Shown one piece after another: positions 2,649-59,798 of a DNA stretch of 64,000 bases; positions within the stretch are counted from its first letter, which is position 1, and every line of letters starts with the position of its first letter. The stretch spans positions 142,890 to 206,889 of the forward strand of contig NZ_KK211360.1 in assembly GCF_000621865.1 (NCBI RefSeq), written 5' to 3'. The notes under the pieces were generated by a model. The model saw only the letters and a program-made list of their open reading frames with translations. It ran no database searches and was not told the origin of the DNA. Both the position numbers and the translations under genes were made by a program. The stretch comes from Pseudobutyrivibrio sp. MD2005. GTDB lineage: Bacteria > Bacillota > Clostridia > Lachnospirales > Lachnospiraceae.

Positions 2649-2874
2649 TTGCAATCATTTTATTAATTTAAGCTAGATACATGCAATAATAGGAGCTTTA
2701 TTAAAGAGAATTGCATGTAAATATTGAAATTATAGTTGGTTACATGCAAAATGAAGTTGGTATCTAAAGTGATTTGCAAGTATTTAAAGAAAAGTGTTTC
2801 AGATACATGCAAATGGATTTTATACAACCTTAATTACAGCATGTATATAATTGATATTGCTTAGATACATGCAA
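2649..2874. repeat. Array A: eight alternating-orientation motifs forming four 38-39 bp dyads
   Basis: The gene-free stretch 2596-2916 contains eight copies of TTGCATGTATCT or its complement AGATACATGCAA. Exact AGATACATGCAA copies lie at 2675, 2801 and 2863, and a close copy ends at 2749. Complement copies begin at 2649, 2711 (TTGCATGTAA), 2774 (TTGCAAGTAT) and 2837 (CAGCATGTAT). They pair as inverted repeats 2649-2686, 2711-2749, 2774-2812 and 2837-2874, with starts 62, 63 and 63 bp apart. The array is symmetric about 2761.5. Spacers are AT-rich and not alike. Arrays B and C share this geometry with a different motif. Confidence 0.85.
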
Positions 2875-2916
2875 TTTAGATTAATGGAAGCAAAAGTAGT
2901 TTAGGAGATAAGACCT

Positions 2917-3279
2917 ATGAAACTAAGAAATGTATTAATTGTAGTAAAAGACATACAAAAATCTAAGAAGTATTATCATGATTTATTCGGTCTTGATATG
3001 ATTTTAGATAATGATGGTAATATGATTTTGACAGAGGGGTTAGTACTTCAGGAAGAAAAGTACTGGAAGGAATTTCTTGGAAAGGACACTGTTTGGAAGG
3101 GAAACTGTAGTGAGCTTTACTTTGAGGAATCAAATATTGAGGAATTCTTAGAAAAGCTTTTAAAACTATATCCAGATACTGAATTCGTAAATACGTTAAT
3201 GACTCATTCCTGGGGACAGAAAGTGATTCGCTTCTATGATCTCGATGGAAATCTTATAGAGGTAGGAACGCCAGCGTAA
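2917..3279 (+). CDS. VOC (glyoxalase/bleomycin resistance) superfamily protein
   Basis: A 120-residue single-module VOC protein: KLRNVLIVVKDIQKSKKYYHDLFGLDMI at the N-terminus and FYDLDGNLIEVG at the C-terminus are the hallmark beta-alpha-beta-beta-beta ends, the latter carrying the usual metal-ligand Glu. The first-strand ligand position is not a His, so metal binding is uncertain. The family includes glyoxalases, antibiotic-binding proteins and dioxygenases; a specific role cannot be assigned. GGAGA at 2904 precedes ATG 2917. Array A ends 42 bp upstream, so it may act on this gene. Confidence 0.8.
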   Translation: MKLRNVLIVVKDIQKSKKYYHDLFGLDMILDNDGNMILTEGLVLQEEKYWKEFLGKDTVWKGNCSELYFEESNIEEFLEKLLKLYPDTEFVNTLMTHSWGQKVIRFYDLDGNLIEVGTPA

Positions 3280-3290
3280 AGGATTCTTTA

Positions 3291-3332
3291 ATAAGGCAAG
3301 GCCGCAAAATTTGATGGTCTTGCCTTATTTGC
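3291..3332 (+). terminator. Terminator after the VOC gene
   Basis: Stem ATAAGGCAAGGCC (3291-3303) pairs, with one mismatch, with GGTCTTGCCTTAT (3316-3328), followed by a T-rich tail. It separates the VOC gene from the his operon promoter. Confidence 0.8.
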
Positions 3333-3352
3333 ATTATAATAAAGGTACATTG

Positions 3353-3381
3353 TTGACTTAGAGTGTATTATAATGTATAAT
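3353..3381 (+). promoter_or_regulatory. Consensus promoter of the his operon
   Basis: TTGACT (3353-3358), 17 bp, TATAAT (3376-3381). A second TATAAT-like sequence overlaps just upstream. Transcription should begin near 3388, inside the inverted repeat described next. Confidence 0.85.
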
Positions 3382-3409
3382 CACTTTAGTTCTTTATCAG
3401 ACTAAAGTG
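3382..3409 (+). promoter_or_regulatory. Perfect inverted repeat at the his transcription start
   Basis: CACTTTAGT (3382-3390) and ACTAAAGTG (3401-3409) form a perfect 9-bp inverted repeat with a 10-bp spacer. It lies directly over the predicted start site and just before the hisZ ribosome site. It could be a repressor operator or a 5' hairpin. I see no T-box or leader peptide. Confidence 0.55.
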
Positions 3410-3421
3410 CGAGGTGGGAAA

Positions 3422-4408
3422 ATGAAAAATCTAACTTTACACACTCCAGAGGGAGTAAGAGACATCTATAACAGTGAATATGAGCAGCGTTTAGATGTTC
3501 TTTACAATTTAAGAAAGTGTTTTAAGGGCTCAGGTTACATGCCTATTTCCACACCTACTTTTGAATATTTCGATACTTTTTCAAAAGAGGTGGGTTCTTG
3601 CAAATCAAATGAAATGTTCAAGTTTTTTGACAGAGATGGAAATACTTTAGTCTTGAGACCTGACATTACACCTTCAGTTGCTAGAGCTGCAGCAATGTAC
3701 TTTTCAGACACAGATGAAGCAGTAAAGCTTTCTTATGAGGGCAATGTATTTATTAATTATCATAGCCTTCAGGGACGCCTTAAAGAAAGCACCCAGGCAG
3801 GTTGTGAGTTTATAGGTGACAGCTCAGCTACAGCTGATGCAGAGATTCTTACAATCGTTGTTAATGCATTAAAAAATGTTGGACTAAAAGAATTTGAAAT
3901 CGGTGTAGGTCATATAGATGTTGTAAGAGGATTGATTGATGCTGCAAATCTATCAGAGGCCAAAGAGGAGAATCTGATTAATCTTATATCAAATAAAAAT
4001 TTCTTCGGTGCAAAGGAGCTTCTTGAACAGGAAGAAGTAAGTAAGGGCCTGATTGATTTATTTGATATTACAGGCAAAATTATGAACTCACCTAAAGAGT
4101 GGGCGCCATATATGGAAAAAGCTAAAAAATACAAAAAAGTATATGATGCTTTGGAATACCTTACTAAGCTATACGAATTACTTAATAAAAACGGAGTTAT
4201 GGAATATATATCATTTGAGCTTGGTATGATTTCAGAGTACAAGTATTATACAGGAATCATCTTTACAGGATATTCTTATGGTGTTGGCGAACCGCTTGTA
4301 AAGGGAGGCAGATATGATTCGCTACTTTCACACTTTGGAAAGGATTCACCAGCTATTGGATTTGCTATAACAGTTGACCAGTTAATGTTAGCACTTAGGA
4401 GAAGGTAA
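3422..4408 (+). CDS. hisZ: ATP phosphoribosyltransferase regulatory subunit
   Basis: This 328-residue HisRS-paralog activates the short-form HisG in the first step of histidine synthesis and senses histidine. [12 protein letters not shown], the motif-2-like [14 protein letters not shown] and the C-terminal [28 protein letters not shown] are typical of HisZ. ATG 3422 is chosen over an upstream in-frame GTG at 3407 because GAGGTGGG (3411-3418) is the ribosome site and HisZ proteins begin near this methionine. It is the first gene of the operon, and its stop overlaps hisG (TAATG). Confidence 0.93.
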
Positions 4409-5067
4409 TGAGTGAAGATAGATATTTAACATTTGCCCTTGGAAAAGGGCGATTAGCTAAAAAAACACTTGAGCTTTTCGAGAGTATTGGAATCACTTGC
4501 GAAGAAATGAAGGATCCTGATACCAGAAAGCTGATTTTTACAAACGAGGAATTAAAGCTTAGATTCTTCCTTGCCAAGGGGCCAGATGTTCCAACATACG
4601 TTGAATATGGTGCTGCGGATATAGGTGTTGTTGGAGAGGATACAATTCTTGAGGAAAACAGAAACATCTATGAGGTTTTAGATCTTGGCTTTGGAAAATG
4701 CCGTATGTGTGTGTGCGGACCTGCTGAAGCAGCAGAGCTTTTGAAACATCATGAGCTCATCAGGGTTGCCAGCAAGTACCCTCGAATAGCCAAGAATTAT
4801 TTCTATAACCAAAAGAATCAGACAGTTGAAATCATTAAGCTTAATGGCTCTATTGAGCTTGCGCCTATTGTAGGTTTATCTGAGGTTATAGTTGATATTG
4901 TTGAGACCGGTTCTACACTTAGAGAAAACGGCCTTGTTGTTTTAGAGGAAGTATGTCCTTTATCTGCAAGAATGGTTGTTAATCAGGTTTCAATGAAGAT
5001 GGAAAATGAAAGAATTACAGACCTTATTGAAAGGTTGAAGGGAGCTCTTGAAAATGAAAAAGCTTAA
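4408..5067 (+). CDS. hisG: ATP phosphoribosyltransferase, short form catalytic subunit
   Basis: Condenses ATP and PRPP to phosphoribosyl-ATP, the committed step of histidine synthesis. At 219 residues it is the short HisG that lacks the C-terminal regulatory domain, consistent with hisZ directly upstream. Visible motifs: [18 protein letters not shown] at the N-terminus, [18 protein letters not shown], and the PRPP loop [16 protein letters not shown] near residue 165. The start overlaps the hisZ stop, and hisD begins inside its 3' end. Confidence 0.95.
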
Positions 5068-6346
5068 GCTTACAAAAGATACAATTGATAATATTTTAGA
5101 GTCACTTCTTAAGCGAAGCCCAAGCCAATATACTGAGTATGAAAGTACCGTAAACGATATCGTAAATACGGTAAGAGAAAAAGGCGACGAGGCAGTATTC
5201 GCATATACGAAGAAATTCGATGGAGCAGATATAAATGCTTCTAATATAGTCGTTACTAAAGAAGAGATAGAAGAGGCTTACACTAAGGTGCCTTCTGAGT
5301 TGATAGAGGTCATTAGAAAGGCACTCGTTAATATCGAACGCTATCATGCAAAGCAAAAGCAAAATAGCTGGTTTACATCTGAAGAAGGAATTATTCTTGG
5401 ACAGAAGGTGACACCTCTTGCTAAGGTTGGCGTGTATGTTCCAGGTGGCAAGGCAGTGTATCCTTCCTCTGTACTTATGAATGTAATGCCGGCAAAGGTT
5501 GCCGGGGTTCCAGAAATCTACATGACAACCCCATGCGACAAAGAGGGTAAAGTTAACCCTGGCACACTTGTAGCTGCAAATGAGGCAGGCGTTGATGTTA
5601 TTTATAAATGCGGTGGTGCACAGGCCATAGCAGCTCTTGCTTTTGGTACAGAAAGTATTGCTAAGGTTGATAAGATCGTAGGCCCAGGAAATATTTTTGT
5701 AGCCCTTGCAAAGAAGGCTGTATTTGGATATGTTTCTATTGATTCTATTGCAGGACCATCTGAGATACTTGTTCTTGCAGATGAGACAGCAAATCCAACA
5801 TATGTTGCTGCAGATTTATTATCACAGGCAGAACATGATGAGCTTGCATCTGCAATTCTTGTCACTACATCAGCAAAGCTTGCAGATGAAGTTGAAAGTG
5901 AGATTGAAAGATTCGTAAAGATTCTTTCAAGAAAGGATATTATTCAAAAGTCCCTTGATAATTTTGGATATTTGCTTATCGCAGATGACAAAAAGGACGC
6001 TATCGATTGCGTAAACGCTATAGCATCTGAGCATCTTGAAGTGGTTACAGCAAATCCATTTGAGGACATGACATATATCAAAAACGCTGGTGCAATTTTC
6101 TTGGGGCAGTATTCTTCCGAGCCTCTTGGAGATTATTTTGCTGGTCCAAATCATGTCCTTCCTACAAACGGTACAGCTAGATTTTTCTCAGCTCTTTCAG
6201 TGGATGATTTCATCAAAAAATCTAGCATTATTTCTTACTCGAAAGAAGCGCTAAAAGCTGTTTATCCAGACATTGTAAAATTTGCAAATAACGAGCAACT
6301 TACAGCTCATGCAAATTCAATTAAAGTGAGATTTGAAGATATATAA
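5054..6346 (+). CDS. hisD: Histidinol dehydrogenase
   Basis: Oxidises L-histidinol to L-histidine in two NAD-dependent steps. The 430-residue protein has the standard blocks [55 protein letters not shown], the [18 protein letters not shown] and [12 protein letters not shown] region with zinc ligands Gln and His, and ASEHLEVVT near the C-terminus. ATG 5054, with GGGAG at 5040-5044, is preferred to an in-frame TTG two codons earlier. It overlaps the end of hisG by 14 bases. Confidence 0.95.
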
Positions 6347-6416
6347 TCTGCTTTAAATATTACTTTATTTTGGGTATAATAGTTTTGGTTGAAATATTAA
6401 AAATTTGGGGTGAATT

Positions 6417-7010
6417 ATGTCTGATGAACGCAGAGCTCGTATAGCTAGAAAAACAAAAGAAACAGATATTACAATTGACTTTTCATTAGATGGGGTAGGT
6501 AATTGTAATGTAAATTCTGGTATAGGTTTTTTTGATCACATGTTAGATGCTTTTACGCGTCACGGACTGTTTGATATGACAGCTGAAATCAAGGGGGATT
6601 TACAGGTAGATTGTCATCATACCATCGAAGACACAGGCATTGTGCTTGGTAATGCTATTAAAAAGGCATGCGGCAGCAAGCGTGGAATCAAGCGATATGG
6701 TAGTTGCATTCTTCCTATGGACGAGACATTGGTTATGGTTGCTATCGATCTTTCAGGTAGGCCATATTTTTCCTTTGAAGCAGATTTTCCAACCGAGAAA
6801 ATCGGTTACATGGATACAGAAATGGTAAAGGAATTTTTCTATGCAATTTCTTATTCTGCAGCGATGAATTTACATATTAAGGTACTCACTCCTGGTAATT
6901 CTCATCATATGGCAGAGGCTATGTTTAAAGCTTTTGCAAAGGCATTAGATGAGGCTACCGTCATAGACCCTCGCATAAAGGATGCCATGACCACGAAGGG
7001 TACTATCTAG
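6417..7010 (+). CDS. hisB: Imidazoleglycerol-phosphate dehydratase
   Basis: Dehydrates imidazoleglycerol phosphate to imidazoleacetol phosphate. This is the 197-residue monofunctional form, without the phosphatase domain seen in enterobacteria. Key features: [34 protein letters not shown] with the manganese-binding His/Glu cluster, and a second cluster [17 protein letters not shown] near the end. GGGG precedes ATG 6417. A 70-bp gap from hisD contains a TATAAT at 6375-6380 without a convincing -35, so an internal promoter is possible but unproven. Confidence 0.95.
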
Positions 7011-7029
7011 ATATTTAAGGAGCATAATT

Positions 7030-8310
7030 ATGGAACACAAGAATATGGTTGCCACTATCTATATTAAGGATGGTATGGCAGTTAAGAGTCCTACAGAACT
7101 TGATAAAAAGAAGGACGTTTTAGAACTTGCATCAGTTTATGATGATAGTGGAATTGATAAAATCATTTGCTATGATTTATCAACTGATGATGATGAGCAC
7201 GAAAAGAATATTTTAGCCATTCGCGAAATCAATAGAAATGTTCAGGTTAAAACAGCAGGTGGCGGAAATATCAAGCGATTAGAAGATGTTAAAAAGCTTC
7301 TTTACGCAGGATGCGTTGAAGTTATTTTAAATGGTTCAAAACCAGAGACAATCGATCTTATCAAAGAGGCATCAGCTCGTTTTGGTGCTAATAAAATGCT
7401 TGTCAGTCTTGCGACAGTTGATTTCCTTTTTAAGACAAAGGATTTCTTACAAGATAATGTTCACGAGCTTCTCATTATGAACACAACACTTTTAGAGGGT
7501 CTCGAGAACATCACCAACATCCCTTACATTGTTCAAGTGGATGATTATGATTTTGATTATGTTTTAAAGCTTCTCAAATCAGATCAGATTCGTGGTATTT
7601 CTGGTACTTTTATCAATGACACCAAATCTGATGTTATGCAGATTAAGAGCGAATTATCTGATGCCGGAATAAAGATGGACAACTTCGAACCAAAGCTTAC
7701 ATGGGCGGATTTAAAGCCTAATTCAGATGGATTAGTTCCTGCTGTTGTTCAGGATTTCCAGACAGGCGAAGTCCTTATGGTTGCCTATATGAATGAGGAT
7801 TCTCTCAACGCCACAATCCGCACAGGCAAGATGACTTACTTCTCACGCTCAAGACAGTCACTTTGGGTCAAGGGCGAGACAAGTGGACACTATCAGTACG
7901 TTAAGTCATTGACGGCTGACTGTGATTTTGATACTATTTTGGCGAAAGTTTCTCAAGTTGGAGTTGCATGTCACACTGGCGCACCTAGCTGCTTCTTCAA
8001 CGAGATTGTTAAAAAGGAGTATGTTGAGCGTAATCCGCTTAAAGTCTTTGAGGATGTTTATGCTGTCATCATGGACAGAAAGGAACATCCAAAGGAAGGT
8101 TCTTACACCAATTATTTGTTTGATAAGGGCCTTGATAAAATTCTCAAGAAGGTTGGCGAAGAGGCTACTGAAATTGTCATCGCGGCCAAGAATCCTGATG
8201 CTGAGGAGACCAAATACGAAATCTCTGATTTCTTATATCACTTAATGGTTCTTATGGCTGAAAAGGGAGTTACTTGGGAAGATATCACTTCGGAGTTAGC
8301 TCAGAGATAA
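7030..8310 (+). CDS. hisIE: HisA/HisF-like domain fused to bifunctional HisIE
   Basis: This 426-residue protein has three parts. Residues 1-215 resemble the HisA/HisF barrel ([38 protein letters not shown]), but the usual catalytic acids are not evident, so the domain may be inactive or structural. Residues 223-325 are HisI, phosphoribosyl-AMP cyclohydrolase, with the metal site TADCDFD and [10 protein letters not shown]. Residues 330-426 are HisE, phosphoribosyl-ATP pyrophosphatase ([32 protein letters not shown]). HisI and HisE catalyse steps 3 and 2 of the pathway. hisH, hisA, hisF and hisC are not in this window. Confidence 0.88.
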
Positions 8311-8315
8311 TTTAT

Positions 8316-10184
8316 ATGAAAAGACTTGCTTTACCTGACGATATTTTGATGCAGATTGATAAGCCTGCTCGCTATATCGGCAACGAATTTAATAGCGTGA
8401 AAAAGAATCCAGCTGACGTAGACATCAGATTTGCTATGTGCTTTCCTGATGTTTACGAAGTTGGTATGTCACACCTTGGAATAGCTATTCTTTACGATAT
8501 GCTAAACCGTAGGGAAGACACATATTGTGAAAGGGTATATTCGCCTTGGCCAGATTTACATAATCTGATGAAGGAAAGGAATATACCTCTTTTTGCGTTG
8601 GAATCTCAAGATCCAATTAAGGGATTTGATTTCATTGGTATGACACTTCAGTACGAGATGTGCTATACAAATATTTTACAGATTCTTGATTTGGCTGGCG
8701 TTGCTCTTTTATCTAGAGATAGAGAAAATGATGATCCAATCGTTATCGTAGGTGGCCCTTGTGCTACCAATCCAGAGCCAATAGCAGATTTTATTGATTT
8801 AGCTTATGTTGGCGAGGGTGAGACTAGCTACGGTGCACTTCTTGATTTATACAAAGAGTGTAAGGCCGCTGGCTTTAATAGAGCTGAGTTTTTACACAAA
8901 GCTAGTCACATTCCAGGAATATACGTACCTAGTCTATATCAGGTTACATATAAAGAATCTGACGGTACCATCGAAAGCTTTAAGCCTATTTATGATGATG
9001 TGCCTTCAACTGTTGTAAGACAGGTAGTAAAGGATTTGGATTCATCACCTTATCCTACCAAAATGCTTATACCTTTTGTCCGTGCAATTCAGGATAGAGT
9101 TGTTTTGGAAATTCAGCGCGGATGTATCCGTGGATGTAGATTCTGTCAGGCTGGCATGATTTATAGACCAAATAGAGAAAAGTCTGTAGAGGTACTAAAA
9201 GCTCAAGCGAAAGAGCTTTTAGCTTCAACAGGTCACGAGGAAATCAGTCTTAGTTCCCTTTCATCAAGTGATTACCATGCACTTGGCGAGCTTATGGATT
9301 TCCTTATTGATGATTGTTTATCAGAAGGTGTTAATGTATCATTACCGTCTTTACGAATTGATGCTTTCTCACTTGATGTTATGAGCAAGGTGCAGGATGT
9401 TAGAAAATCAAGTGTTACCTTTGCTCCAGAAGCAGGCTCTCAGAGAATGCGTAACGTCATTAATAAAGGTCTTACTGTTGAAGATATCATTGGCGGTGCA
9501 ACAATGGCATTCAAAGGTGGATGGAATAAAGTTAAGTTCTATTTCATGCTTGGCTTGCCATCTGAGACTGACGAAGATATGAAGGCTATTCCACGCCTTG
9601 CAAATGACGTAGCGGCTGCATATTACGAGACTGTTCCAAAGGAGCAGCGTCAGGGTAGATGTCAGATTACCATTTCTACATCATTCTTCGTGCCAAAGCC
9701 ATTTACACCATTCCAGTGGGCTCCAATGTACGAAGCAGGAGAATATTTGCGCCGAGCCAAGGTTGTTAATGACGAGATGAAAGCTCAGCTCAATCAAAAG
9801 TCTCTTAAATACAATTGGCATCATTCAGATGTAACTGTACTTGAAGGTGTTTTTGCTCGTGGTGACAGACGTCTTTGCCCAGCGATTTTAGATGCATATA
9901 ATAGCGGATGTTTCTTTGATGCCTGGGGTGAGTACTTTGATTTTGATAAGTGGCTTGCTGCATTTGAAAAGAACAATATCTCTATTGATTTTTATGCTTA
10001 CAGACAGCGTGACTTGGATGAAATTTTCCCATGGGATTTCATTGATTGTCATGTAACAAAAGATTTCTTAAAACGTGAATGGAATAACGCTATGAACGCA
10101 AAGGTTACTCCTAACTGTAAAATGGGCTGCAGTGGTTGTGGCTCTGCAAGAATCGGATCGGGGGTATGTCACAATGCGCGTTAG
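8316..10184 (+). CDS. B12-binding radical SAM protein, TIGR03960 family
   Basis: A 622-residue protein with an N-terminal cobalamin-binding-like domain (RFAMCFPDVYEVGMSHLGIAIL, VIVGGPCATNPEPIADFID) and a radical SAM core with the cluster motif RGCIRGCRFCQAG near residue 273. The C-terminal tail CKMGCSGCG carries three more cysteines. ATG 8316 is chosen because the family begins with (M)-LALPDDILMQIDKPARYIG; in-frame upstream codons lie inside hisIE. It always travels with the next gene in Firmicutes, upstream of RNase G and L21. The reaction is unknown; RNA modification has been suspected from context only. Confidence 0.88.
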   Translation: MKRLALPDDILMQIDKPARYIGNEFNSVKKNPADVDIRFAMCFPDVYEVGMSHLGIAILYDMLNRREDTYCERVYSPWPDLHNLMKERNIPLFALESQDPIKGFDFIGMTLQYEMCYTNILQILDLAGVALLSRDRENDDPIVIVGGPCATNPEPIADFIDLAYVGEGETSYGALLDLYKECKAAGFNRAEFLHKASHIPGIYVPSLYQVTYKESDGTIESFKPIYDDVPSTVVRQVVKDLDSSPYPTKMLIPFVRAIQDRVVLEIQRGCIRGCRFCQAGMIYRPNREKSVEVLKAQAKELLASTGHEEISLSSLSSSDYHALGELMDFLIDDCLSEGVNVSLPSLRIDAFSLDVMSKVQDVRKSSVTFAPEAGSQRMRNVINKGLTVEDIIGGATMAFKGGWNKVKFYFMLGLPSETDEDMKAIPRLANDVAAAYYETVPKEQRQGRCQITISTSFFVPKPFTPFQWAPMYEAGEYLRRAKVVNDEMKAQLNQKSLKYNWHHSDVTVLEGVFARGDRRLCPAILDAYNSGCFFDAWGEYFDFDKWLAAFEKNNISIDFYAYRQRDLDEIFPWDFIDCHVTKDFLKREWNNAMNAKVTPNCKMGCSGCGSARIGSGVCHNAR

Positions 10185-10890: not shown

Positions 10891-10983
10891 AAAGATATTT
10901 TGAATCCGTTATGGTTGTTTTTTGATGTAAAAGTAATTAAAATTTAATTAGAAGTAATTAATAATTCAAAGGAGACAAAATAT

Positions 10984-42900: not shown

Positions 42901-43162
42901 TACGGTAATAGTATTTGAATTGTTTTAATTGTACCGTAGTATTATTTGATGGTTGAGAGACATTTACGGTAAATGTGTTGATGTTTACGCTGTAATACCG
43001 TAGAAATCATATAGAAAATGGAATGTGTAGATTTAATTGAGTTAAATTGAAGAAATATCTTACGGAATAGAATCATTAATTAGGCATAGAATTCCGTAAA
43101 ATGAGCTATATTAAGATTTTTAACTACGGTATGAAACGCATAAAAGATGAATTTGTTCCGTA
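42901..43162. repeat. Array B: eight TACGGNA motifs forming four 38-bp dyads
   Basis: The 480-bp gap 42808-43288 has no gene up to the zinc-ribbon fragment. It holds TACGG at 42901, 42965, 43061 and 43125, and CCGTA at 42934, 42998, 43094 and 43158. They pair as TACGG...CCGTA dyads of exactly 38 bp. Dyad starts are 64, 96 and 64 bp apart, giving perfect symmetry about 43031.5. Every copy extends to TACGGWA on its strand. Spacers are unrelated to each other and to array C. Confidence 0.9.
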
Positions 43163-45732: not shown

Positions 45733-45832
45733 TGCGGAAGGCGGGGTGAGGTGGAAATAGAAAAAGGTCCAGTGGACCTTTTTCCCACCGAACCGACCGA
45801 CGAAGCCCTTCAGGGCGAGGAGACCTTGAACC
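45733..45832. repeat. 100-bp repeat, copy 1
   Basis: Identical over 100 bp to 47336-47435. It begins TGCGGAAGGCGGG, the same 13 bases as the 3' end of the nearby tRNA-Leu on this strand, and contains the hairpins AAAAAGGTCCA-GT-GGACCTTTTT and GCCCT-TC-AGGGC. It ends in CCTTGAACC. A palindrome CCGACATATATGTCGG (45831-45846) follows. It is GC-rich compared with its surroundings, which suggests a mobile or recently acquired sequence. Confidence 0.9.
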
Positions 45833-46033: not shown

Positions 46034-46846
46034 ATGACAGGTATAAACGCAAAAGTTGCGGAGCAGAATGATGCTAAGGTTAAGAAGCTTGTCGATGATA
46101 TGACACTTTTCGACGATGATTTAATGACTTTAGTATTCAACCATAATATTCCAGCAACAGAACTTCTTTTGAGAATTATTCTTGGAAGAAATATACAAGT
46201 AACTGATATTGAAGTTCAAGAGGAATTAAGGAGTCCTATAGTAGGCGGTAGAGATATAACTCTTGATGTTCATGCGATTGACGTAAATGGCGATGAAATA
46301 GATATCGAGGTACAAGGCAGCTCTGAAGGTGCTCATGTACGCAGACCAAGATTTCATAGTGCCGTAATCGACTCAAGAATGCTTAAAGAAGGAGATGCCT
46401 TTAAGATCCTAAAAGATTCTTATGTAATCTTCATTTACAAACATGATAAATTTGGTAAGGGATTACCGATATATAGAGCAGATAGAGTTGTTCTTGAAAC
46501 AGGAGAGCCATTAAATGACGGCTCACACATTATATATGTAAATGGTAAATATAAAGGAAATGATGAAATCGGTATGCTGATGCATGATTTCAATTCAAAG
46601 ACTTCCGACGGCATGTATTACAAGGAATTAGCCGAAGGTCTACATCATTTCAAGGAAACTGAGGAAGGACGTGATATTATGTGTGAATCAGTAAAAAAAT
46701 ACGCAGAAGAATACAAGACTGAAGACAAAATTGAAACTGTTAAAAATCTTATGACAAATATGAAATGGACTCTTGAACAGACTCTCACTAATATGGGCGT
46801 TTCAGACAGAGAGCGTTCAATAATCACTCAGCAACTTCAAAAATAG
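46034..46846 (+). CDS. Rpn/PD-(D/E)XK nuclease family transposase
   Basis: 270 residues. DDDLMTLVFNHNIPATELLLRIIL at the start, DITLDVHAIDVNGDEIDIEVQGS with the D...ExQ nuclease core near residues 75-95, and RPRFHSAVIDSRMLKEGD match the PD-(D/E)XK nuclease family transposase group related to the recombination-promoting RpnA. These genes are numerous in Lachnospiraceae and act in recombination or DNA transfer. AAGGAG precedes ATG 46034. It lies between the two 100-bp repeats. Confidence 0.88.
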   Translation: MTGINAKVAEQNDAKVKKLVDDMTLFDDDLMTLVFNHNIPATELLLRIILGRNIQVTDIEVQEELRSPIVGGRDITLDVHAIDVNGDEIDIEVQGSSEGAHVRRPRFHSAVIDSRMLKEGDAFKILKDSYVIFIYKHDKFGKGLPIYRADRVVLETGEPLNDGSHIIYVNGKYKGNDEIGMLMHDFNSKTSDGMYYKELAEGLHHFKETEEGRDIMCESVKKYAEEYKTEDKIETVKNLMTNMKWTLEQTLTNMGVSDRERSIITQQLQK

Positions 46847-47335: not shown

Positions 47336-47435
47336 TGCGGAAGGCGGGGTGAGGTGGAAATAGAAAAAGGTCCAGTGGACCTTTTTCCCACCGAACCGAC
47401 CGACGAAGCCCTTCAGGGCGAGGAGACCTTGAACC
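47336..47435. repeat. 100-bp repeat, copy 2
   Basis: Exact copy of 45733-45832. It continues into a different hairpin: GAGACCTTGAACC pairs with GGTTCAAGG-GA-CTC (to about 47452). The stretch 47211-47540 holds this repeat and AT-rich sequence but no convincing gene; an apparent reading frame through it merely crosses the repeat. Confidence 0.9.
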
Positions 47436-51969: not shown

Positions 51970-51989
51970 ATGAAGCAGAAAGGGTACTA

Positions 51990-53003
51990 ATGGACGAACG
52001 TATAGTTGTAGTAGATGATGATGCGATTATTTTAAAAAACGCTAATGGGGTTTTATCTAAAGCAGGCTTTAAGGTTACATGTCTAAAAAGTGGAAGGCTT
52101 CTTTTAGATTACGTAAAAATGAACACTGTAGATATGCTTCTTTTAGATATCAAAATGCCAGAACTTGATGGATTTGAAACAATGAAGCTGCTTAGAGAAT
52201 GGGAACATGAAAACTGCGAACAAGAGATACCTGTGATTTTCTTTACGGCTAACGACGATTGTGATTCTGAAAAGACGGGTCTTTCATTAGGTGCCATGGA
52301 TTTTATTCGAAAACCATTTGTTGCTGAAGTTTTAACTTTGCGTGTAACACATCTTTTGGATTTAATAAGATTGCAACGAGATTTACATGCAGAGGTTGTT
52401 CGCAAAACAAAGGAAATAGAAGGCTTATCTCTTCATGTAGTTCATACTTTGGCAGATGCAATTGATGCAAAGGATGCTTATACAAAGGGCCATTCCGGAC
52501 GAGTGGCTGATTATGCTCGTGAAATCGCCAAAAGATATGGTTATTCCTATGAAAGACAGGAAGAAATCTATATGATGGGCCTTCTTCATGACGTAGGTAA
52601 AATCGGCGTTCCTGACGCTGTGATTAATAAGCCAGGTAAATTGACAGATGAGGAGTTTGAGAAGATTAAAACTCATCCTAAACGAGGGGCACAGATATTG
52701 GAAAACATCGAAGAAATGCCAAAGCTTGCTATTGGAGCCAGATGGCACCACGAAAGATTTGACGGCCGTGGTTATCCTGATGGCCTTTCTGGGGAAGATA
52801 TTCCGGAAGAGGCTAGAATCATCGCTGTGGCTGATGCCTATGATGCAATGACCAGTAATCGTAGCTACAGAGGTCTAATTCCTCAGGAAGTAGTAAAGGA
52901 AGAGTTGGAGAAAGGTTCCGGCTCCCAGTTTGATCCAAGATTTGCTGCAATAATGCTAGATATAATTGCAGAAGATGTGGATTATAATTTGCATGAACAC
53001 TGA
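51990..53003 (+). CDS. Response regulator with HD-GYP cyclic di-GMP phosphodiesterase domain
   Basis: About 337 residues. Receiver domain (IVVVDDDAIILKNANGVL, phospho-Asp in LLLDIKMPELDG, FIRKPF), then HD-GYP with KGHSGRVADYAREIAKR, LLHDVGKIGVPD and HHERFDGRGYPDGL, an intact motif. It should degrade cyclic di-GMP when phosphorylated. ATG 51990 is used; GTG 51957 lies within the preceding gene. It is the output of the three-gene sensing operon. Confidence 0.92.
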   Translation: MDERIVVVDDDAIILKNANGVLSKAGFKVTCLKSGRLLLDYVKMNTVDMLLLDIKMPELDGFETMKLLREWEHENCEQEIPVIFFTANDDCDSEKTGLSLGAMDFIRKPFVAEVLTLRVTHLLDLIRLQRDLHAEVVRKTKEIEGLSLHVVHTLADAIDAKDAYTKGHSGRVADYAREIAKRYGYSYERQEEIYMMGLLHDVGKIGVPDAVINKPGKLTDEEFEKIKTHPKRGAQILENIEEMPKLAIGARWHHERFDGRGYPDGLSGEDIPEEARIIAVADAYDAMTSNRSYRGLIPQEVVKEELEKGSGSQFDPRFAAIMLDIIAEDVDYNLHEH

Positions 53004-53023
53004 TCAAAATAATTGATTTTTTT

Positions 53024-53056
53024 AGAGCATATTCATAGGAGTATGCTCTATATTTT
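53024..53056 (+). terminator. Terminator after the HD-GYP gene
   Basis: AGAGCATA (53024-53031) pairs with TATGCTCT (53042-53049), followed by a T-rich tail. Confidence 0.8.
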
Positions 53057-53133
53057 TATATATAAAATAGTTGCAGTCTGTTTGTTAAAGTAGTATATTG
53101 CTACTATAATAATTCGAAGGAGAAAATGTATTT

Positions 53134-54084
53134 ATGAAAAATAAAAAACTATTATTGGTTGGACTTGCAGCAATGATGCTTTTGGGATGTGGAAAATCAG
53201 ATGATTCTAATGAGGATGATTATGATATACACGACAGATTTGAGGAGGAAGATGCTGAAGAAAAAGAAGACTCTGAGGAGATAGAAGAGGATGAAGATAA
53301 ATCAGATGAGAAATCTGATAATGAAATGCGCTACATTGGAGAAATCCCATTGCTTAGTGAAGACGATGATCCTGATGGATTAGATATGTATTTCCAATAC
53401 GAAGGCAATACCAGAGATGATTATATTTATATTTCATCTCTTACATTGGTTAATGGCAAAAACAAAGATATAGTTGATGAGTGTGGATTTAACTATAGCG
53501 AAATTTCGGGATGTTACGATTTAGTAACTGATGATAACAGAGAATATATCTTTTTAGATGTTGCCTGGGGCAATGATTACTATGATATTTATGAGTTTGA
53601 TATAACAAAAGGTAATGCCGAATATATTGGAGAGATAGGGCACGTTCATTCGTATGTAGATGAATTAAATTCTGGCGCACCAGATTTTAGCGACCCAGAT
53701 AATATTTTGATTGCAGATGTTTCCGGGGCACTTGGTACATGTATCTGCTATGATTATTATCATATAGGCGAAGATGGCTCACTTGAATCAAACACAACAG
53801 GCGCCATCATATCCCATGTATCTTCAGAAAGCATTACTTCAAACACAGCCATGGAGCTGGAAGTTGTAGATGCAGATGGTAATCTTACTGGGGAAAAAAT
53901 CACAGTACCTTCTGGCAGCACCTTTGTACCAGTTAGAACAAATCTGGATGATTGGATAGATGCTGAAGTTAATGGAGGTACTACAGTAAGACTTCATTAC
54001 ACTTACGATTATGATTCATACGAATATTTTATTAACGGATCAAATATCGAAGATATATTCTCAGGAATTATGTATGTTGGATAG
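53134..54084 (+). CDS. Acidic hypothetical lipoprotein
   Basis: 316 residues. Signal KLLLVGLAAMMLLGC gives a lipid-anchored Cys at 20, followed by an extremely acidic linker of about 45 residues (DDYDIHDRFEEEDAEEKEDS). The remainder (about 65-316) is a beta-rich extracellular domain without a recognised family. AAGGAG precedes ATG 53134. Confidence 0.75.
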   Translation: MKNKKLLLVGLAAMMLLGCGKSDDSNEDDYDIHDRFEEEDAEEKEDSEEIEEDEDKSDEKSDNEMRYIGEIPLLSEDDDPDGLDMYFQYEGNTRDDYIYISSLTLVNGKNKDIVDECGFNYSEISGCYDLVTDDNREYIFLDVAWGNDYYDIYEFDITKGNAEYIGEIGHVHSYVDELNSGAPDFSDPDNILIADVSGALGTCICYDYYHIGEDGSLESNTTGAIISHVSSESITSNTAMELEVVDADGNLTGEKITVPSGSTFVPVRTNLDDWIDAEVNGGTTVRLHYTYDYDSYEYFINGSNIEDIFSGIMYVG

Positions 54085-54115
54085 GATATTAAGAATAAAA
54101 TATTTAGGGGAAATA

Positions 54116-54811
54116 ATGAAAAGCAATATTGAATTATCAAAAGAACAGCGACTTGCTGTTTTACAAACAGCGGCATCTGATTTATCAAGCAAATTCCCTT
54201 TTATTTGTACTATTGAGCAAGGGATGCTTATTATTCAAGTAGATTGGAAAGATACTACTTTTATCAATGGGCCAGGGCTTACAAGAGAACAAAAATCCTA
54301 TAGGCATATTGTAAGATTAAAGCCTAATGGCAAATTTGCTACATTGGACGTTTATGTAGAAAATTATGAATCCGTAGGGCTTGGAGGATTGACTATAGGA
54401 AGAAGAGAGTTTGCAGGAAAATCGGTTAGGTTTAATTGGGAAGCTCAGATTGGAAAGGATAATCAGACAGGCAAAACAGGGCTGATAGTTAATAAGTTTA
54501 GTTCTCGAAGCATACAGGCGCCTGTAAAAGAATATTTTTCCAATTTAGGCTATGCGTATCAGCGTTATTCATTAGCAGATGATTGGCATGGAATTTCTTT
54601 TAACATGAGAGTTGTTCTTGGTTTATTGTTTATGTTTGCATCAGGAATTATGATTCCAGGGATTATTTATTCTTGTATTGTAGAATCTGATAAGGGTGTA
54701 TATATTTCTATCGCTGCATTTATTTTCTCGTTTTTTTTAATTGGAATAGGTATACTTATTAGTGGAATTAAAGATATGATTAAACAAAAAAGAAACGAAG
54801 AATGGGATTGA
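54116..54811 (+). CDS. Hypothetical protein with C-terminal membrane hairpin
   Basis: About 231 residues. A cytoplasmic N-terminal part (KFPFICTIEQGMLIIQVDWK, IVRLKPNGKFATLDVYVEN) is followed by two membrane segments (VVLGLLFMFASGIMIPGIIY, ISIAAFIFSFFLIGIGILIS) and a basic tail. GGGG before ATG 54116 sets the start. No family recognised. Confidence 0.7.
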   Translation: MKSNIELSKEQRLAVLQTAASDLSSKFPFICTIEQGMLIIQVDWKDTTFINGPGLTREQKSYRHIVRLKPNGKFATLDVYVENYESVGLGGLTIGRREFAGKSVRFNWEAQIGKDNQTGKTGLIVNKFSSRSIQAPVKEYFSNLGYAYQRYSLADDWHGISFNMRVVLGLLFMFASGIMIPGIIYSCIVESDKGVYISIAAFIFSFFLIGIGILISGIKDMIKQKRNEEWD

Positions 54812-54827
54812 TATTGGGAGGATAGAA

Positions 54828-55715
54828 ATGTCAAAAATAAGCGATGACGTAAGAAAAGCGTTTAAGGAAACGGATGATTTAAGAGATTTAGGGTTAACTA
54901 CACCTGATAGCATTGTTAGATACGATGACATTTGTTATGGAGAAGATGCAAAGTGGCAATCTTTAGACGTATATAGACCTAAGAACGCAGGGGATGAGAA
55001 GCTGCCTGTTATAGTTAGTGTTCATGGCGGAGCTTGGGTATATGGAGATAAAGAACGCTATTCTTTTTACTGTATGGACTTAGCAACAAGGGGCTTTGCT
55101 GTTGTAAATTTTACCTATAGACTGGCTCCAGAATTTCAGTTTCCAGCCTCATTAGAAGATACAAATTCTGTTTTCAAGTGGGTTTTTGCTCATGCTTCAG
55201 AATACTGCTTTGATACTGAAAATGTTTTTGCGGTAGGAGACTCGGCTGGCGCACATATTTTAGGTCTTTATTCAGCATTTTGTACTAATAAAGATTATAC
55301 TAAGCTTTTCAGTTTTAAGCCTTTAGAGGGCTTCAAACCAAAGGCAATTGTGCTAAATTGTGGTGCATTTAAACTGGAATTATCTGATGATCCCGAAGAC
55401 ATGAACACAGGCCTTATGCACGATTTAATGCCGAATCATGGTACAGAAGAAGAAATGGAACTGATTAATGTATCATCAAAAGTGAACTCAGATTTTCCTC
55501 CATGTTTTATTGTAACTGCTACAGGAGATTTTTTGATAGATCAGCCAGCACTTATGATAGATAAGTTTATAAAGTATTCAGTGCCTCACGAATTTCATTT
55601 TTATGGTGATAAAGATAATGAATTGGGTCATGTTTTCATGCTGAGAATTCGAGAGGATGCTGCCAAAATATGTAATGATGAAGAATGTGATTTCTTTAGA
55701 AAATTTATAAATTAG
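54828..55715 (+). CDS. Alpha/beta hydrolase (esterase/lipase type)
   Basis: 295 residues. VSVHGGAWVYGDKERY has the HGG oxyanion hole, AVGDSAGAHILGLYS the nucleophile (GDSAG) and LGHVFML the catalytic His, as in hormone-sensitive-lipase-type carboxylesterases. No signal peptide. GGGAGG precedes ATG 54828. Natural substrate unknown. Confidence 0.85.
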   Translation: MSKISDDVRKAFKETDDLRDLGLTTPDSIVRYDDICYGEDAKWQSLDVYRPKNAGDEKLPVIVSVHGGAWVYGDKERYSFYCMDLATRGFAVVNFTYRLAPEFQFPASLEDTNSVFKWVFAHASEYCFDTENVFAVGDSAGAHILGLYSAFCTNKDYTKLFSFKPLEGFKPKAIVLNCGAFKLELSDDPEDMNTGLMHDLMPNHGTEEEMELINVSSKVNSDFPPCFIVTATGDFLIDQPALMIDKFIKYSVPHEFHFYGDKDNELGHVFMLRIREDAAKICNDEECDFFRKFIN

Positions 55716-55770
55716 ATATGTGTTGTCTAAAATCAGATGACTTTGTAAAAATAAGTAAGAGGCGATTTAG

Positions 55771-56244
55771 ATGAATACAGAAAAAGCTTTACTAAGAAAA
55801 TATGAAGATGATTTAAATGTAAGCGGTATAGGTGTAATCATCATGGGCGCATGGAGCTGTGCGAAAGTCTTTATTGAAGTTTTGCTGAACTCTGATGATG
55901 TTTTTGGTGAAGAGGGTGGAATAAAGGATTTGGGGCCTGTTGGTATATCTATAGTGCTCATTCTGGTTTTTATTCTTTCGCTTATTATTATGAAAATACA
56001 TTTGTATATTGGCGGAAATGCAATGAAAGCTTCTAAAGGAAAGCAACACAAAAAAGGATATTTTGTTGCTGCAATAATATACGCTGTAATAAATGTGCTA
56101 GGTTTGTTGCCTTATTATGAAAGTCTGCAGAATGTGGATACGATTGATACGACAATCGCGTCAATCTTGGTGGATCTTACCACTATCTACATTTTGATAA
56201 TTGTAATAATTTCAACACTCAAAATTAAAAGAATCAATGATTGA
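55771..56244 (+). CDS. Hypothetical membrane protein, four segments
   Basis: 157 residues with about four hydrophobic stretches (GIGVIIMGAWSCAKVFIEVL, GISIVLILVFILSLIIMKIH, GYFVAAIIYAVINVLGLLPY, DLTTIYILIIVIISTLKI). No family recognised. Co-directional with the genes around it. Confidence 0.65.
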   Translation: MNTEKALLRKYEDDLNVSGIGVIIMGAWSCAKVFIEVLLNSDDVFGEEGGIKDLGPVGISIVLILVFILSLIIMKIHLYIGGNAMKASKGKQHKKGYFVAAIIYAVINVLGLLPYYESLQNVDTIDTTIASILVDLTTIYILIIVIISTLKIKRIND

Positions 56245-56265
56245 GATACGGGGGTAAACCAATAT

Positions 56266-57393
56266 ATGCAGGAAGATTTTCACTATTACGCAACATATTG
56301 CGCAGCTTTTATAGCCGGTTATTCTCATAAAGAAAGCTTGGATATTGCATATAGTGCACAGTTTGTTGATGTGTGTTCGAGAACTCTTTTATCTAAAATA
56401 AAAGGGCCTGGCAATGCTGCAACAACACAGCTACAGCTAGAGCTTATGGATGCCAGAACAGATCCGGTTGGGCTTCAGGATATTACTCGCATTTGGTCAT
56501 CATTCCATTTTCTGCCTAAGGATCTTTTTGCTGAAAAAAAGAAATGCTCAAGACGCTATCGCAACAAGTACAGACTTATATGTGGTCCCAACGGTGATTT
56601 GGTAGTAAAAACAGTGGAGCTTGCAAAAGGAAAGCCTATTCAGTCCGTTGGAATTGCAATGCATGTGTTGGCTGATACTTGGGCTCATGCCAATTTTGCA
56701 GGCACACCATCTCTAGTTATAAATAATACTAATTATGTATTCTATGAGCTCATCCCTGAGGGGGACGGTTTTAAGGAAAGGCAAATCAAATTTGTACATA
56801 AGAAATCAGTGCCAGATGATTTAGATAATAGTGTTTATACAAATAGTTTATATCAAAGTAATGAGAATTCTATTATGAATCTAGGGCACGGTAGAGCGGG
56901 ACATCTGCCAGATTATAGTTTCGTCAGATATAAATATCTTCCTGCATGGGGTGAATATGGAGAAATCACAAAGGATAATCCATCAGACTATATGAAAGCC
57001 TTTACTCAAATGATTTATGCGATGAAATATATTCGTGGAATTAATCAATCATTTGAAATAGATAAATATGATACTGAGGCAATTAGCCAGTGGAAGGAAC
57101 GGATTCAAGGCATTATCGAAAAAAGACAGCTTTTAGCCAGTGAAGACTGGAAAGCTTTTGGAGAAGAATTGTCCGGACAAGTCATAGAAGATTTTGCCAT
57201 AGATAAATATTTTAATGAATATGTGTCTGCCAACAAAAAAGATAAGGATGAGACTTATTTAGGTAAGTTCATTCGTGGCGCAATTGCTCACAAGGGCATG
57301 GTTATTGATGAAATAGGAAAGAGTGGAAACAAGCTTGCAGGTGTTGCTAGAGGCAGCTTTCTCAATAGGTTTTTTAGAGGAAATCAAAAATGA
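56266..57393 (+). CDS. DUF6765 family protein
   Basis: 375 residues. MQEDFHYYATYCAAFIAGYS and GIAMHVLADTWAHANFAGTP are typical of DUF6765, proteins with a His/Asp-rich zinc-phospholipase-like helical core; the repeated His residues (HYYA, HVLADTWAH) are likely metal ligands. Function unknown. It overlaps the next gene (ATGA). Confidence 0.75.
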   Translation: MQEDFHYYATYCAAFIAGYSHKESLDIAYSAQFVDVCSRTLLSKIKGPGNAATTQLQLELMDARTDPVGLQDITRIWSSFHFLPKDLFAEKKKCSRRYRNKYRLICGPNGDLVVKTVELAKGKPIQSVGIAMHVLADTWAHANFAGTPSLVINNTNYVFYELIPEGDGFKERQIKFVHKKSVPDDLDNSVYTNSLYQSNENSIMNLGHGRAGHLPDYSFVRYKYLPAWGEYGEITKDNPSDYMKAFTQMIYAMKYIRGINQSFEIDKYDTEAISQWKERIQGIIEKRQLLASEDWKAFGEELSGQVIEDFAIDKYFNEYVSANKKDKDETYLGKFIRGAIAHKGMVIDEIGKSGNKLAGVARGSFLNRFFRGNQK

Positions 57394-57926
57394 CAATTTT
57401 TCAAAGAATCAGAAACATTTTAATTGGATTAATAATGATTCTAATTGGGTTAATTTTCCTAATAAACCCAAGCGATGAGGCATATATTTTAGTTATTGGA
57501 GTATTATTTTTAGGTCTTACCATAAAAGGAATCAAGGATATTATTTTTTATATAACTATGGCAAGACATATGGTTGGAGGCAAAATCATTTTGTTTCAAG
57601 GAGTTGTTTTGCTTGATTTTGCCTTACTAACAGGTTCATTATCCAATGTGCCAAAAATATATATACTTTTGTATTTAGTATTGATTAATGGATTCGCTGG
57701 GATTGTTGAAGTCCTAAGGGCTTTAGAGTCTAAAAAGGAAGTAGATGGACCGTGGAAAATGAAATTTAGCCACGGCATCGTAAATTTTATTCTGGCATTA
57801 TCATGCCTGATTTTTATAAGACATAATAATACGGCTCTTATAATATATAGTATAGGCCTTATATATTCGGCCATTATGAGAATCATTAATTCTTTTAGAA
57901 GAACGACATTTATTCTGATTGAATAA
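57390..57926 (+). CDS. HdeD/DUF308-like membrane protein
   Basis: 178 residues in six hydrophobic segments, with the paired-segment pattern of DUF308 (ILIGLIMILIGLIFLINPSD, YILVIGVLFLGLTIKGIKDI). The role of such proteins is poorly known. Coupled to the DUF6765 gene by a four-base overlap. Confidence 0.65.
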   Translation: MTIFQRIRNILIGLIMILIGLIFLINPSDEAYILVIGVLFLGLTIKGIKDIIFYITMARHMVGGKIILFQGVVLLDFALLTGSLSNVPKIYILLYLVLINGFAGIVEVLRALESKKEVDGPWKMKFSHGIVNFILALSCLIFIRHNNTALIIYSIGLIYSAIMRIINSFRRTTFILIE

Positions 57927-57972
57927 TAGTCTTTACGCTACAGAATTTAACTAAGTGGAAAAGGGGAATAGC

Positions 57973-58491
57973 ATGTATTTAGTTTCAGCTTATTTTGATA
58001 ATGATACAACTGAGCATCTTCAGAAGTACATTGACATAATAGCAGAGGCATCTGGTAATAACTTTATGATTGATAATAATATTCCACCTCATATGACTTT
58101 AACTGCAATAGAGGCAAGAAGTGCAGAGGCATTATTGCCAGCATTCGATAATCTTAATGGCAAATTTAGTCCTGGGGAAATATCTATTATCTCTATTGGT
58201 CAGTTTATGCCGAAGGTGATTTATGCTGCTCCATATATTAATCAATATTTGTTTGAACTACAGCAGGATATTTGTGAGGTCTTTGCTAATATTCCAGAGA
58301 CGAATATCAGCAAATTTTATAAGCCGCTATCATGGTTTCCTCATATCACACTGGCAAAGACTTTAAACAAGGAGCAGATGACTAAAGCAGTTATGTGTAT
58401 GAGTGATTTTAAGGAACTGAAGGCAGATATTGTACGTATAAGCTTAGCCAGTGTTAATCCTCATAAAGATATAAAAGGAATACCAGATTAA
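57973..58491 (+). CDS. 2H phosphoesterase-like protein
   Basis: About 172 residues. Two HxT motifs, IPPHMTLTAIE near residue 40 and WFPHITLAKTL near 130, are the catalytic pair of the 2H superfamily, which includes 2'-5' RNA ligases and cyclic phosphodiesterases. It probably acts on RNA 2'-phosphate or cyclic nucleotide ends. AAAGGGG supports ATG 57973. Confidence 0.8.
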   Translation: MYLVSAYFDNDTTEHLQKYIDIIAEASGNNFMIDNNIPPHMTLTAIEARSAEALLPAFDNLNGKFSPGEISIISIGQFMPKVIYAAPYINQYLFELQQDICEVFANIPETNISKFYKPLSWFPHITLAKTLNKEQMTKAVMCMSDFKELKADIVRISLASVNPHKDIKGIPD

Positions 58492-58590
58492 TTATTCGAA
58501 TTAGGAATATAACGATGTGAAAAATGAATAACCACCAATCTCTTTAAATTGCTATAATCCAATAGTAGTAATTAATAAGGAGGTAGTGTT

Positions 58591-58974
58591 ATGGCTTGTT
58601 TTACAATACCAGCTGGCGAAGCTGTTGTAACAACAATAGTAAAGAAAACAATTGATAAGAAGGGGTTAAAACAGGAAAAATCTGAAAACAAGAGTGGTAT
58701 TCCATTTTCACGTAAGTTAAAGTGGCTTACAAATCTTCTTTGGGGAGGCTCAGTGCTTCTAGCATACGAGCATGTATGGCATGGAGAGGTTAAGCCATTT
58801 TTTCCATTTTTAACTGCGATGGAGAATCCGGCAGATAAAGCAGAAATGCTACATGAAATGGGAACAGTAGGTGTTGGAATGGCTGTTCTTGTAACTGTTG
58901 TATGGATTGGTATTTGCGTTGCGGCAGATATTATTGTTAAGCGTCCTCTTTCAGGCGTTAAATCTGGAAATTAG
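58591..58974 (+). CDS. Hypothetical membrane protein
   Basis: 127 residues. A basic N-terminal region (VVTTIVKKTIDKKGLKQEKS) is followed by two membrane segments (LKWLTNLLWGGSVLLAYEHV, GVGMAVLVTVVWIGICVAAD). No family recognised. GGAGG precedes ATG 58591; it is 11 bp before the next membrane gene, and the two probably form a pair. Confidence 0.7.
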   Translation: MACFTIPAGEAVVTTIVKKTIDKKGLKQEKSENKSGIPFSRKLKWLTNLLWGGSVLLAYEHVWHGEVKPFFPFLTAMENPADKAEMLHEMGTVGVGMAVLVTVVWIGICVAADIIVKRPLSGVKSGN

Positions 58975-58985
58975 GAGGTGCGGGC

Positions 58986-59285
58986 ATGACATTATTAATT
59001 ACAGTTTTTGCAGCTCTTATTACTACAATTTTGTGGTACAACAGAAAAAATGATGATATGAAACTTCATGTATTGATGTTTATGTTTTGGGGAGCATCTA
59101 TTATGTGGTTTGTAGATGCTATTGCTGAATATATAGAGATGGGAGCAGAATACTTTACCCCAGCATTAGAAGATATGATCAATGACAGCTTTTTAGGTCT
59201 TTCTGTTATTGCATTTGCAATGATTATTTGGATTGTATATGTTTTAATAAAAGACCCTAAGGGAGTTGTACGTAAAGCACTTTAA
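58986..59285 (+). CDS. Hypothetical small membrane protein
   Basis: 99 residues, three membrane segments (LLITVFAALITTILWYNRKN, LHVLMFMFWGASIMWFVDAI, LGLSVIAFAMIIWIVYVLIK). GGAGGTG precedes ATG 58986. No family recognised. Confidence 0.7.
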   Translation: MTLLITVFAALITTILWYNRKNDDMKLHVLMFMFWGASIMWFVDAIAEYIEMGAEYFTPALEDMINDSFLGLSVIAFAMIIWIVYVLIKDPKGVVRKAL

Positions 59286-59311
59286 TTGAATATGCACTAT
59301 ATCAAAGTAAG

Positions 59312-59345
59312 AAAGGGAGCTAGTTTGAACAGCTCCTTTAATTTT
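59312..59345 (+). terminator. Terminator after the membrane gene pair
   Basis: GGGAGCT pairs with AGCTCC around AGTTTGAAC, followed by TTTAATTTTT. The 3' half AGCTCCTTTAATTTT recurs at 60505. Confidence 0.8.
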
Positions 59346-59539
59346 TCCAATTTATGGATTCTAGACACACTTAATTTTTAGAATTATAGATTAAGCCTTT
59401 TATTATAGCGCTAAAACTAAATCATGGTTGGTACTAGTTGGGCGAAGTAAGAAATTATTGGTCAATGTCACATCTTTACAAGATTTGAACTATAAATAAA
59501 AATGTTAATAATATTCCAGCATGGTAGTTTGTAGGGATT

Positions 59540-59798
59540 TACGGTATGGATGTAGTTTTTCGAATAGTTTACCGTAGCTATTTTGGGTAACTTGACATAT
59601 TTTACGGTATAATCATTGAAAACTAACAATTAGTCCCGTAGAAATAGAGTGCTGATTGATAAAAGCAGATATAGATACATTGTTATTAGGCTTTATTCTA
59701 CGGGATATTTTGAGATTTCTATAGCTTATACCGTACTTTTTTATTATGTATGAAATATCACTACGGAACAACAATGATAATTCTAGAAATATCCCGTA
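59540..59798. repeat. Array C: eight TACGGNA motifs forming four 37-38 bp dyads
   Basis: TACGG at 59540, 59603, 59699 and 59762; CCGTA at 59572, 59636, 59731 and 59794. Dyad lengths are 37, 38, 37 and 37 bp; starts are 63, 96 and 63 bp apart, the same plan as array B 16.6 kb away. It is symmetric about 59669. Spacers do not match array B. The stretch 59346-59539 before it shows no gene; a 62-codon frame at 59750-59938 overlaps the array and is not credible. Confidence 0.9.

Follow-up and report, generated by a model that had tools for sequence, protein, structure and literature searches.

The window analysed here, a 64,000-nucleotide stretch of the Pseudobutyrivibrio sp. MD2005 genome (contig NZ_KK211360.1, positions 142,890 to 206,889 of the forward strand), contains three sites, arrays A, B and C, at which short half-sites alternate in orientation at regular steps. 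All three are intergenic relative to open reading frames (ORFs) of at least 80 amino acids (aa); shorter ones, of 53-65 aa, do overlap B and C. A preliminary description, made from the letters of the window, had placed four dyads of 37-39 base pairs (bp) at each site, repeated with a period of 62-64 bp, with an unrelated core sequence in A. Our reading agrees. The sites lie where they had been reported and hold eight half-sites each, TTGCATGTA in A and, as the consensus for B and C together, YTACGGNA; the dyad length and period are as described, the period in B and C applying within each half.

Array A (2649..2874, no strand assigned) is made of eight alternating slots of TTGCATGTA and TACATGCAA that start at 2649+, 2678-, 2711+, 2741-, 2774+, 2804-, 2837+ and 2866-. 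The steps run 29/33/30/33/30/33/29, that is, 29-30 and 33 bp in turn without a centre gap. Slot 1 is weak (3 mismatches, a reading by eye), and the slot at 2837+ has 2 mismatches. On its two sides lie a gene that is CAAX-protease-like and one that is glyoxalase-like. Arrays B (42901..43162) and C (59540..59798), likewise without strand, consist of half-sites TACGGNA/TNCCGTA. The 7-mers of B start at 42901+, 42932-, 42965+, 42996-, 43061+, 43092-, 43125+ and 43156- (steps 31/33/31/65/31/33/31), those of C at 59540+, 59570-, 59603+, 59634-, 59699+, 59729-, 59762+ and 59792- (steps 30/33/31/65/30/33/30). The unstranded centre between both inner half-sites (43003..43060 in B, 59641..59698 in C) spans 65 bp start to start, and 55-56 bp in some relatives. 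The overall symmetry first ascribed to all three sites therefore extends to the alternation of eight half-sites, but not to the 65-bp centre of B and C, since A continues at 30/33.

Spacing, more than the number of half-sites, sets array A apart from chance. In the window, TTTACSGTA with at most one mismatch occurs 38 times against 18.8 +/- 4.2 in shuffled sequence, and none of 100 shuffles reached 38. The count of TACATGCAA in the window is not above chance (36 against 29.1, a value that 14 of 100 shuffles attain). Chains of at least five A half-sites were absent from 20 shuffles of 104 kb, and the exact A dyad pattern gave 8 matches in this genome, its reversed control 0. A's departure from chance thus rests on the spacing. 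The preliminary description expected the geometry to recur beyond shuffled controls whatever the motif, and it does: a motif-agnostic scanner for alternating inverted 8-mers (steps 16 to 62, chains of at least five) yielded ten chains from 493 kb of this genome, and five shuffles of that sequence contained none. Nine are clear (five of A, from the window and contig C15, one of motif G, two of D and one of E); the tenth, L033:17388-17611, is weak. The same scan of 353 kb from relatives gave one chain, with none in five shuffles, and wider step windows added two more in relatives (L057, L060). Because the scanned stretches were partly picked around known matches, the density of chains is not an unbiased one. 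The scanner is also blind to degenerate half-sites and missed B, C and a B/C unit in a relative (L246 of G020). Over 920 kb of G001, G028, G020 and G021 it returned same-direction repeats and one short-step chain only; G001, G020 and G021 nevertheless carry B/C-type units, so that this result in relatives says little. Further same-direction chains in several loci were set aside.

Several unrelated core sequences do stand under such geometry, as had been supposed. Unrelated spellings of 7-14 bp define A, B/C, D, E and G in this genome and F in a relative: D is AAAAGGTATAACC (period 75, contigs C4 and C9), E is CTTGCGATA (period 74, contig C4), G is TTACCACTG (period 52-53, several places), and F is ACTACGTGRGG (period 65, eight half-sites, G005). 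The periods seen across motifs, 52, 53, 63, 65, 74 and 75, lie near 5, 6 and 7 turns when divided by 10.5, an agreement that is suggestive across motifs. The claim that the geometry is identical from motif to motif had to be given up: the periods fall at 52-53, 62-64, 65 and 74-75, open-ended arrays occur beside four-dyad units, and a centre gap is found in B/C only. The motif A pattern is present in 1 of 29 genomes of the genus; with three half-sites it matched once in wider genome contigs, a three-site chain without an array, and not at all in viral contigs. Similar hairpins (about TTCYTGAAARACATCAGTTTTTCARGAA), possibly a recurring terminator, stand beside two different arrays at L026:9108-9147 and L040:6280-6311.

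To find B/C-type units in relatives we used R1, a sequence-only model derived from both halves of B and both halves of C; its matches to these two arrays follow from that construction, whereas matches in other genomes do not. A fixed pattern, TTACGGTA..TACCGTAA, had matched 0 of 29 genomes and missed B and C themselves because the sixth base of the half-site varies. With the E limit at 0.1, R1 matched at least 19 of the 29 genomes, and with the limit at 0.001 at least 12; both counts are lower bounds, as 126 candidates per genome were scored. One match in viral contigs (E 2e-5) lies within a 752-aa ORF and is taken as chance. Applied to 32 sources, a rule for chains that was fitted to B and C gave arrays of at least five half-sites in 18 and none in 14. 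Of its 18 distinct arrays (L270 and L274 left out as duplicates), 2 are those of the window and 16 come from G001, G017, G019, G020, G021 and G027; 13 have exactly eight sites, and the centre gap is 55-56 in nine and 65-66 in nine. Kinship among loci (L271/L272, L289/L302, L291/L304, L292/L305 and L276/L293/L297) reduces these to about 12 independent ones. Over 137 copies the half-site consensus is YTACGGAANA.

Nineteen sources were re-read, the 14 without a chain and five outside the 32 (L278, L279, L282-L284). In most of them the half-sites formed either two-dyad runs or runs of six sites, spaced for example 30/45/30/33/30; L279, L282, L283, L284 and L308 had little or no B/C array. Since many units depart from the 33/centre/33 layout, we dropped the layout rule and counted all gaps of 16 to 150 bp between dyads, restricting only dyad width, to 29-31. 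The count yielded 113 B/C dyads in 35 sources, some of them orthologous loci, with four sources lacking a dyad. The 77 distinct gaps fell at 32-34 (42), 43-45 (10), 54-56 (10), 65-66 (9), 118-119 (3), 128 (2) and 139 (1), and none lay outside these seven classes. A ladder period of 10.5-11 fits them (R 0.94-0.96), and none of 5000 uniform simulations was as periodic, whether the 33 class was included or left out. Four or eight dyads are present in 18 of the 35 sources, so that the four dyads of the preliminary description recur; in L280, L290, L294, L303 and L306 gap orders such as 55/45/33 or 44/45/33 replace 33/65/33 and are still on the ladder. This ladder is the strongest evidence that a face of the double-stranded DNA is under constraint.

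Arrays of motif G contain up to 28 half-sites. Of the 29 genomes of the genus, 13 have exact G dyads and not one matches the reversed control pattern; in a family-wide draw of 397 genomes such dyads occur in this genome only, and four viral contigs have single G dyads without any array. Across 30 arrays, some of them orthologous, 412 of 418 slots are filled. Their spacing follows two modes, 31/21 (138 and 125 steps) and 33/20 (53 and 44), others being few. In mode I the half-site columns carry 1.6-2.0 bits and the loop columns 0-1.0; core columns in mode II carry 1.4-2.0. The settings of G arrays are the purN-purD interval, the vicinity of the ATP synthase operon's end and the DNA upstream of pgm. 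The same place is occupied in several species with differing copy number, and at these three shared places the half-sites are intact while the loops differ between species. The pgm-side array was found in 6 of 28 loci and absent in four loci that were read. One purN-purD array (L163:2133-2642, G023) switches part-way from TTACCACTG at 52 bp to a TTACCACTAG-like half-site at 53 bp.

Some of the elements have moved. L271 (G019) and L272 (G001) have 393 bp in common at 94%; their flanks are unrelated. In G001 the left end of the unit recurs as a 40-bp copy about 1.5 kb upstream, and the moved unit extends about to the start codon of the following ORF. F is enclosed by concentric 23-nucleotide inverted arms (91%) that contain GGGACTGTGGC. 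Overlaps included, 2.8 Mb of sequence has six occurrences of that word; F accounts for two, a B/C unit and the neighbourhood of a G dyad for one each, and the last two bound a B/C-like stretch in G020. That stretch, about 550 bp between the inverted arms (L244:18820-19369), holds degenerate TACGGAA/TTACGTA half-sites. Terminal inverted repeats are clear for F, and none were established for A, B or C; the pgm-side absences and the unit in two contexts gave no convincing target-site duplication. The B/C unit in two contexts and the inverted arms around F imply that at least some arrays ride small mobile units.

Gene context was scored for 29 arrays with an ORF of at least 80 aa on both sides, after exclusion of three edge arrays and four duplicates or orthologues. 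Their neighbours are tandem in 22 cases, convergent in 5 and divergent in 2, and background gaps give 38, 7 and 7. Neither promoters nor terminators are in excess at A, B or L271. A small gene adjoins C (60151..60450, + strand, 99 aa) and has no Pfam match; a 55% identical protein stands beside the G001 B/C-type unit (L272:1127-1429), on the unit's opposite side. Two nearby proteins are possible binders. One is an AAA-ATPase with a C-terminal winged helix (P0001; C15:19658-20692 = L023:99-1133), whose start lies 244 bp downstream of the third A array. The other, a WYL-domain regulator with a weak helix-turn-helix match (window 61739-62722), lies about 2 kb from C in a window that had been described as without an obvious binder. 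Elsewhere in the window, perfect 100-bp direct repeats (45733-45832 and 47336-47435), each with the 25-bp near-palindrome GAAAAAGGTCCAGTGGACCTTTTTC inside, flank a PDDEXK_2 family gene (46034-46846).

From these sequence data, A, B and C are part of a wider set of non-coding intergenic elements, which are probably best read as arrays that can disperse and whose half-sites, set in helical phase, bind protein. Each half-site most likely takes one subunit of a sequence-specific DNA-binding protein. The dyads are rigid, and the distances between them vary by whole helical turns only; changes of that kind would keep the sites on one face of the DNA, so that a cooperative assembly, bridged or wrapped, becomes possible. 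Different motifs may answer to different lineage-specific binders, possibly a family of paralogous binding proteins as the preliminary description proposed. The elements can spread as small units, of which the B/C unit in unrelated contexts and F in its concentric inverted repeats are examples. Resident elements keep half-sites and spacing while the intervening DNA changes, and binding in place therefore appears to be selected. As a best guess, and the weakest part of this reading, the role may be local structuring of the chromosome or insulation between transcription units, resembling bacterial interspersed mosaic elements (BIMEs) in effect rather than a promoter operator. More tentatively, and with somewhat less than even confidence, the arrays might represent an unrecognised chromosomal nucleoprotein class of helix-phased alternating half-sites, in four-dyad units and open-ended arrays scattered among the genes of this clade, served by a diversifying binder family whose oligomer geometry is conserved while its specificity changes, and kept by selection.

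Several observations weigh against protein-binding arrays in helical phase. No binder was found, nor any recurrent DNA-binding family among the subset of neighbours given to Pfam; GNAT acetyltransferases adjoin four B/C units and belong to a very large family. The periods of F (65) and D (75) match whole turns less well. Same-direction chains, a second control, number four in the 493 kb scanned in this genome, two at A arrays and two unrelated. The conservation of half-site columns comes in part from the selection rule of at most one mismatch in an 8-mer core, the loops being unselected. Site C has 11 promoter-like matches against 5.3 +/- 2.5 in shuffled sequence. Inverted arms also pair more than expected when arrays are pooled: at positions 8-10 of mode II (45 against 23.9, 33 against 19.6 and 22 against 15.2, of 53), slightly at positions 9 and 10 of mode I, and in B/C (53 of 67 against 47.7). 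One G array, as inverted repeats would, folds strongly as RNA (z -14.3).

The pairing data bear on the reading of each dyad as a transcript hairpin, since inverted arms can pair. At mode I arm positions 0, 5 and 8, pairing equals that of shuffled arms (129 against 129.1, 126 against 126.3 and 123 against 123.3 of 135). Shuffling within arrays or genomes abolishes the excess (45 against 45.7, 33 against 32.9 and 53 against 52.7), although the within-array test has low power where arrays are uniform; the pooled mode II excess is explained, within that limited power, by differences between arrays. Further, folding is weak for all three arrays of the window (z -1.9 to -2.7), only a tRNA reached the gathering score in a search of the window against Rfam, and the gap lengths track the DNA helix. 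A structured RNA is the least credible account of the arrays. If they were ordinary operators instead, multi-site elements through which a transcription factor controls the promoter of the downstream gene, the 22 of 29 arrays between co-directional genes, the reach of the moved B/C unit and the promoter-like excess around C would be as expected. Five arrays, however, lie between convergent genes and one between purN and purD, neighbour functions are varied, and the orientation classes resemble background; a single array of 28 half-sites also fits poorly. We regard operators as very unlikely.

Mobility itself raises the prospect of purely selfish elements similar to miniature inverted-repeat transposable elements, with the half-sites serving a transposase or recombinase in trans and the resident copies functionless. 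The B/C unit that two species carry in unrelated surroundings, the 40-bp left-end copy in G001, the GGGACTGTGGC-cored arms around F, and the loop and spacer sequence that, by eye, D arrays on two contigs have in common would all suit such elements. Dead copies, however, would not be expected to keep half-sites at shared places while loops differ, a pattern to which no formal selection test was applied, and neither an established target duplication nor a cognate transposase was found. On balance this origin is unlikely, yet it deserves more weight than the operators. Arrays of tandem repetitive extragenic palindromes (REPs), that is, BIMEs spread by a RAYT transposase, are less probable than either. 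They too are alternating, intergenic, lineage-specific and present in several copies per genome (PMC2817692). A match to the RAYT-family Y1_Tnp domain (PF01797) was found in 10 of the 29 genomes and in 4 of the 13 G carriers (G007, G009, G013 and G024). The other nine G carriers, among them this genome (99.98% complete) and several incomplete drafts, had no match, so that the RAYT prediction failed.

Where several unrelated words are set on related pitches and joined by whole-turn gaps, the sequence points strongly to a protein assembly that recognises both the DNA face and the letters. If one family of binders explains all the motifs, a bacterial lineage would have a new way of marking intergenic DNA, and the arrays would offer a ready system for asking how DNA-binding specificity changes while architecture stays. 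They also have a practical side. In several drafts a contig begins or stops at or close to an array (the end of L145, the starts of L156 and L024, the ends of L296, L300 and L301); the arrays probably break assemblies there, and for that reason copy numbers in drafts are probably too low.

Our literature search, with subscription journals largely outside its coverage, found no described match to the arrays. CRISPR arrays (clustered regularly interspaced short palindromic repeats) have identical direct repeats of 20 bp or more, and the repeats here, the feature on which the comparison was made, are 7-14 bp in alternating orientation. The sopC centromere of the F plasmid is made up of tandem units of about 43 bp, each containing a dyad, and is bound by one protein; like the present arrays it combines tandem dyads with a fixed period near whole turns, but here the half-sites are at least 13 bp apart and occur at many places per genome, and no parA or parB family was seen among the array neighbours given to Pfam, not every neighbour being scanned. 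Transposon ends with several transposase sites, such as those of plant En/Spm and of Tn7, also carry a short motif several times over, partly in both orientations, and belong to a mobile unit; the present arrays differ in strict alternation and pitch, in being palindromic as a whole and in having no transposase that we could find. The CIRCE operator, TTAGCACTC-N9-GAGTGCTAA, has 9-bp inverted arms that resemble motif G (TTACCACTG). It is a single operator with a spacer of 9, whereas motif G has spacers of 21 or 13 and forms arrays, and the resemblance is probably a coincidence.

The preliminary description had held the sites to be unlike established elements, and the Rfam search is in keeping with this; BIMEs, which it did not name, are nonetheless a real precedent for alternation, being REP units in alternating orientation (PMC2817692). 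Those of enterobacteria, pseudomonads and Stenotrophomonas share with the present arrays an intergenic position, lineage specificity, alternating units and variable copy number. The same source describes REP spread as dependent on RAYT and REPs as carrying complementary mutations (PMC2817692). Half-sites here are not palindromes, and compensation was not seen within arrays or genomes, where power is limited. Binding of gyrase, IHF and Pol I is a further feature of BIMEs. BIMEs are the nearest known kind, but two of their defining features, RAYT and compensated palindromic units, fail, and in place of these the present arrays have short non-palindromic half-sites, helix-phased spacing, free loops and several unrelated motifs with related geometry.

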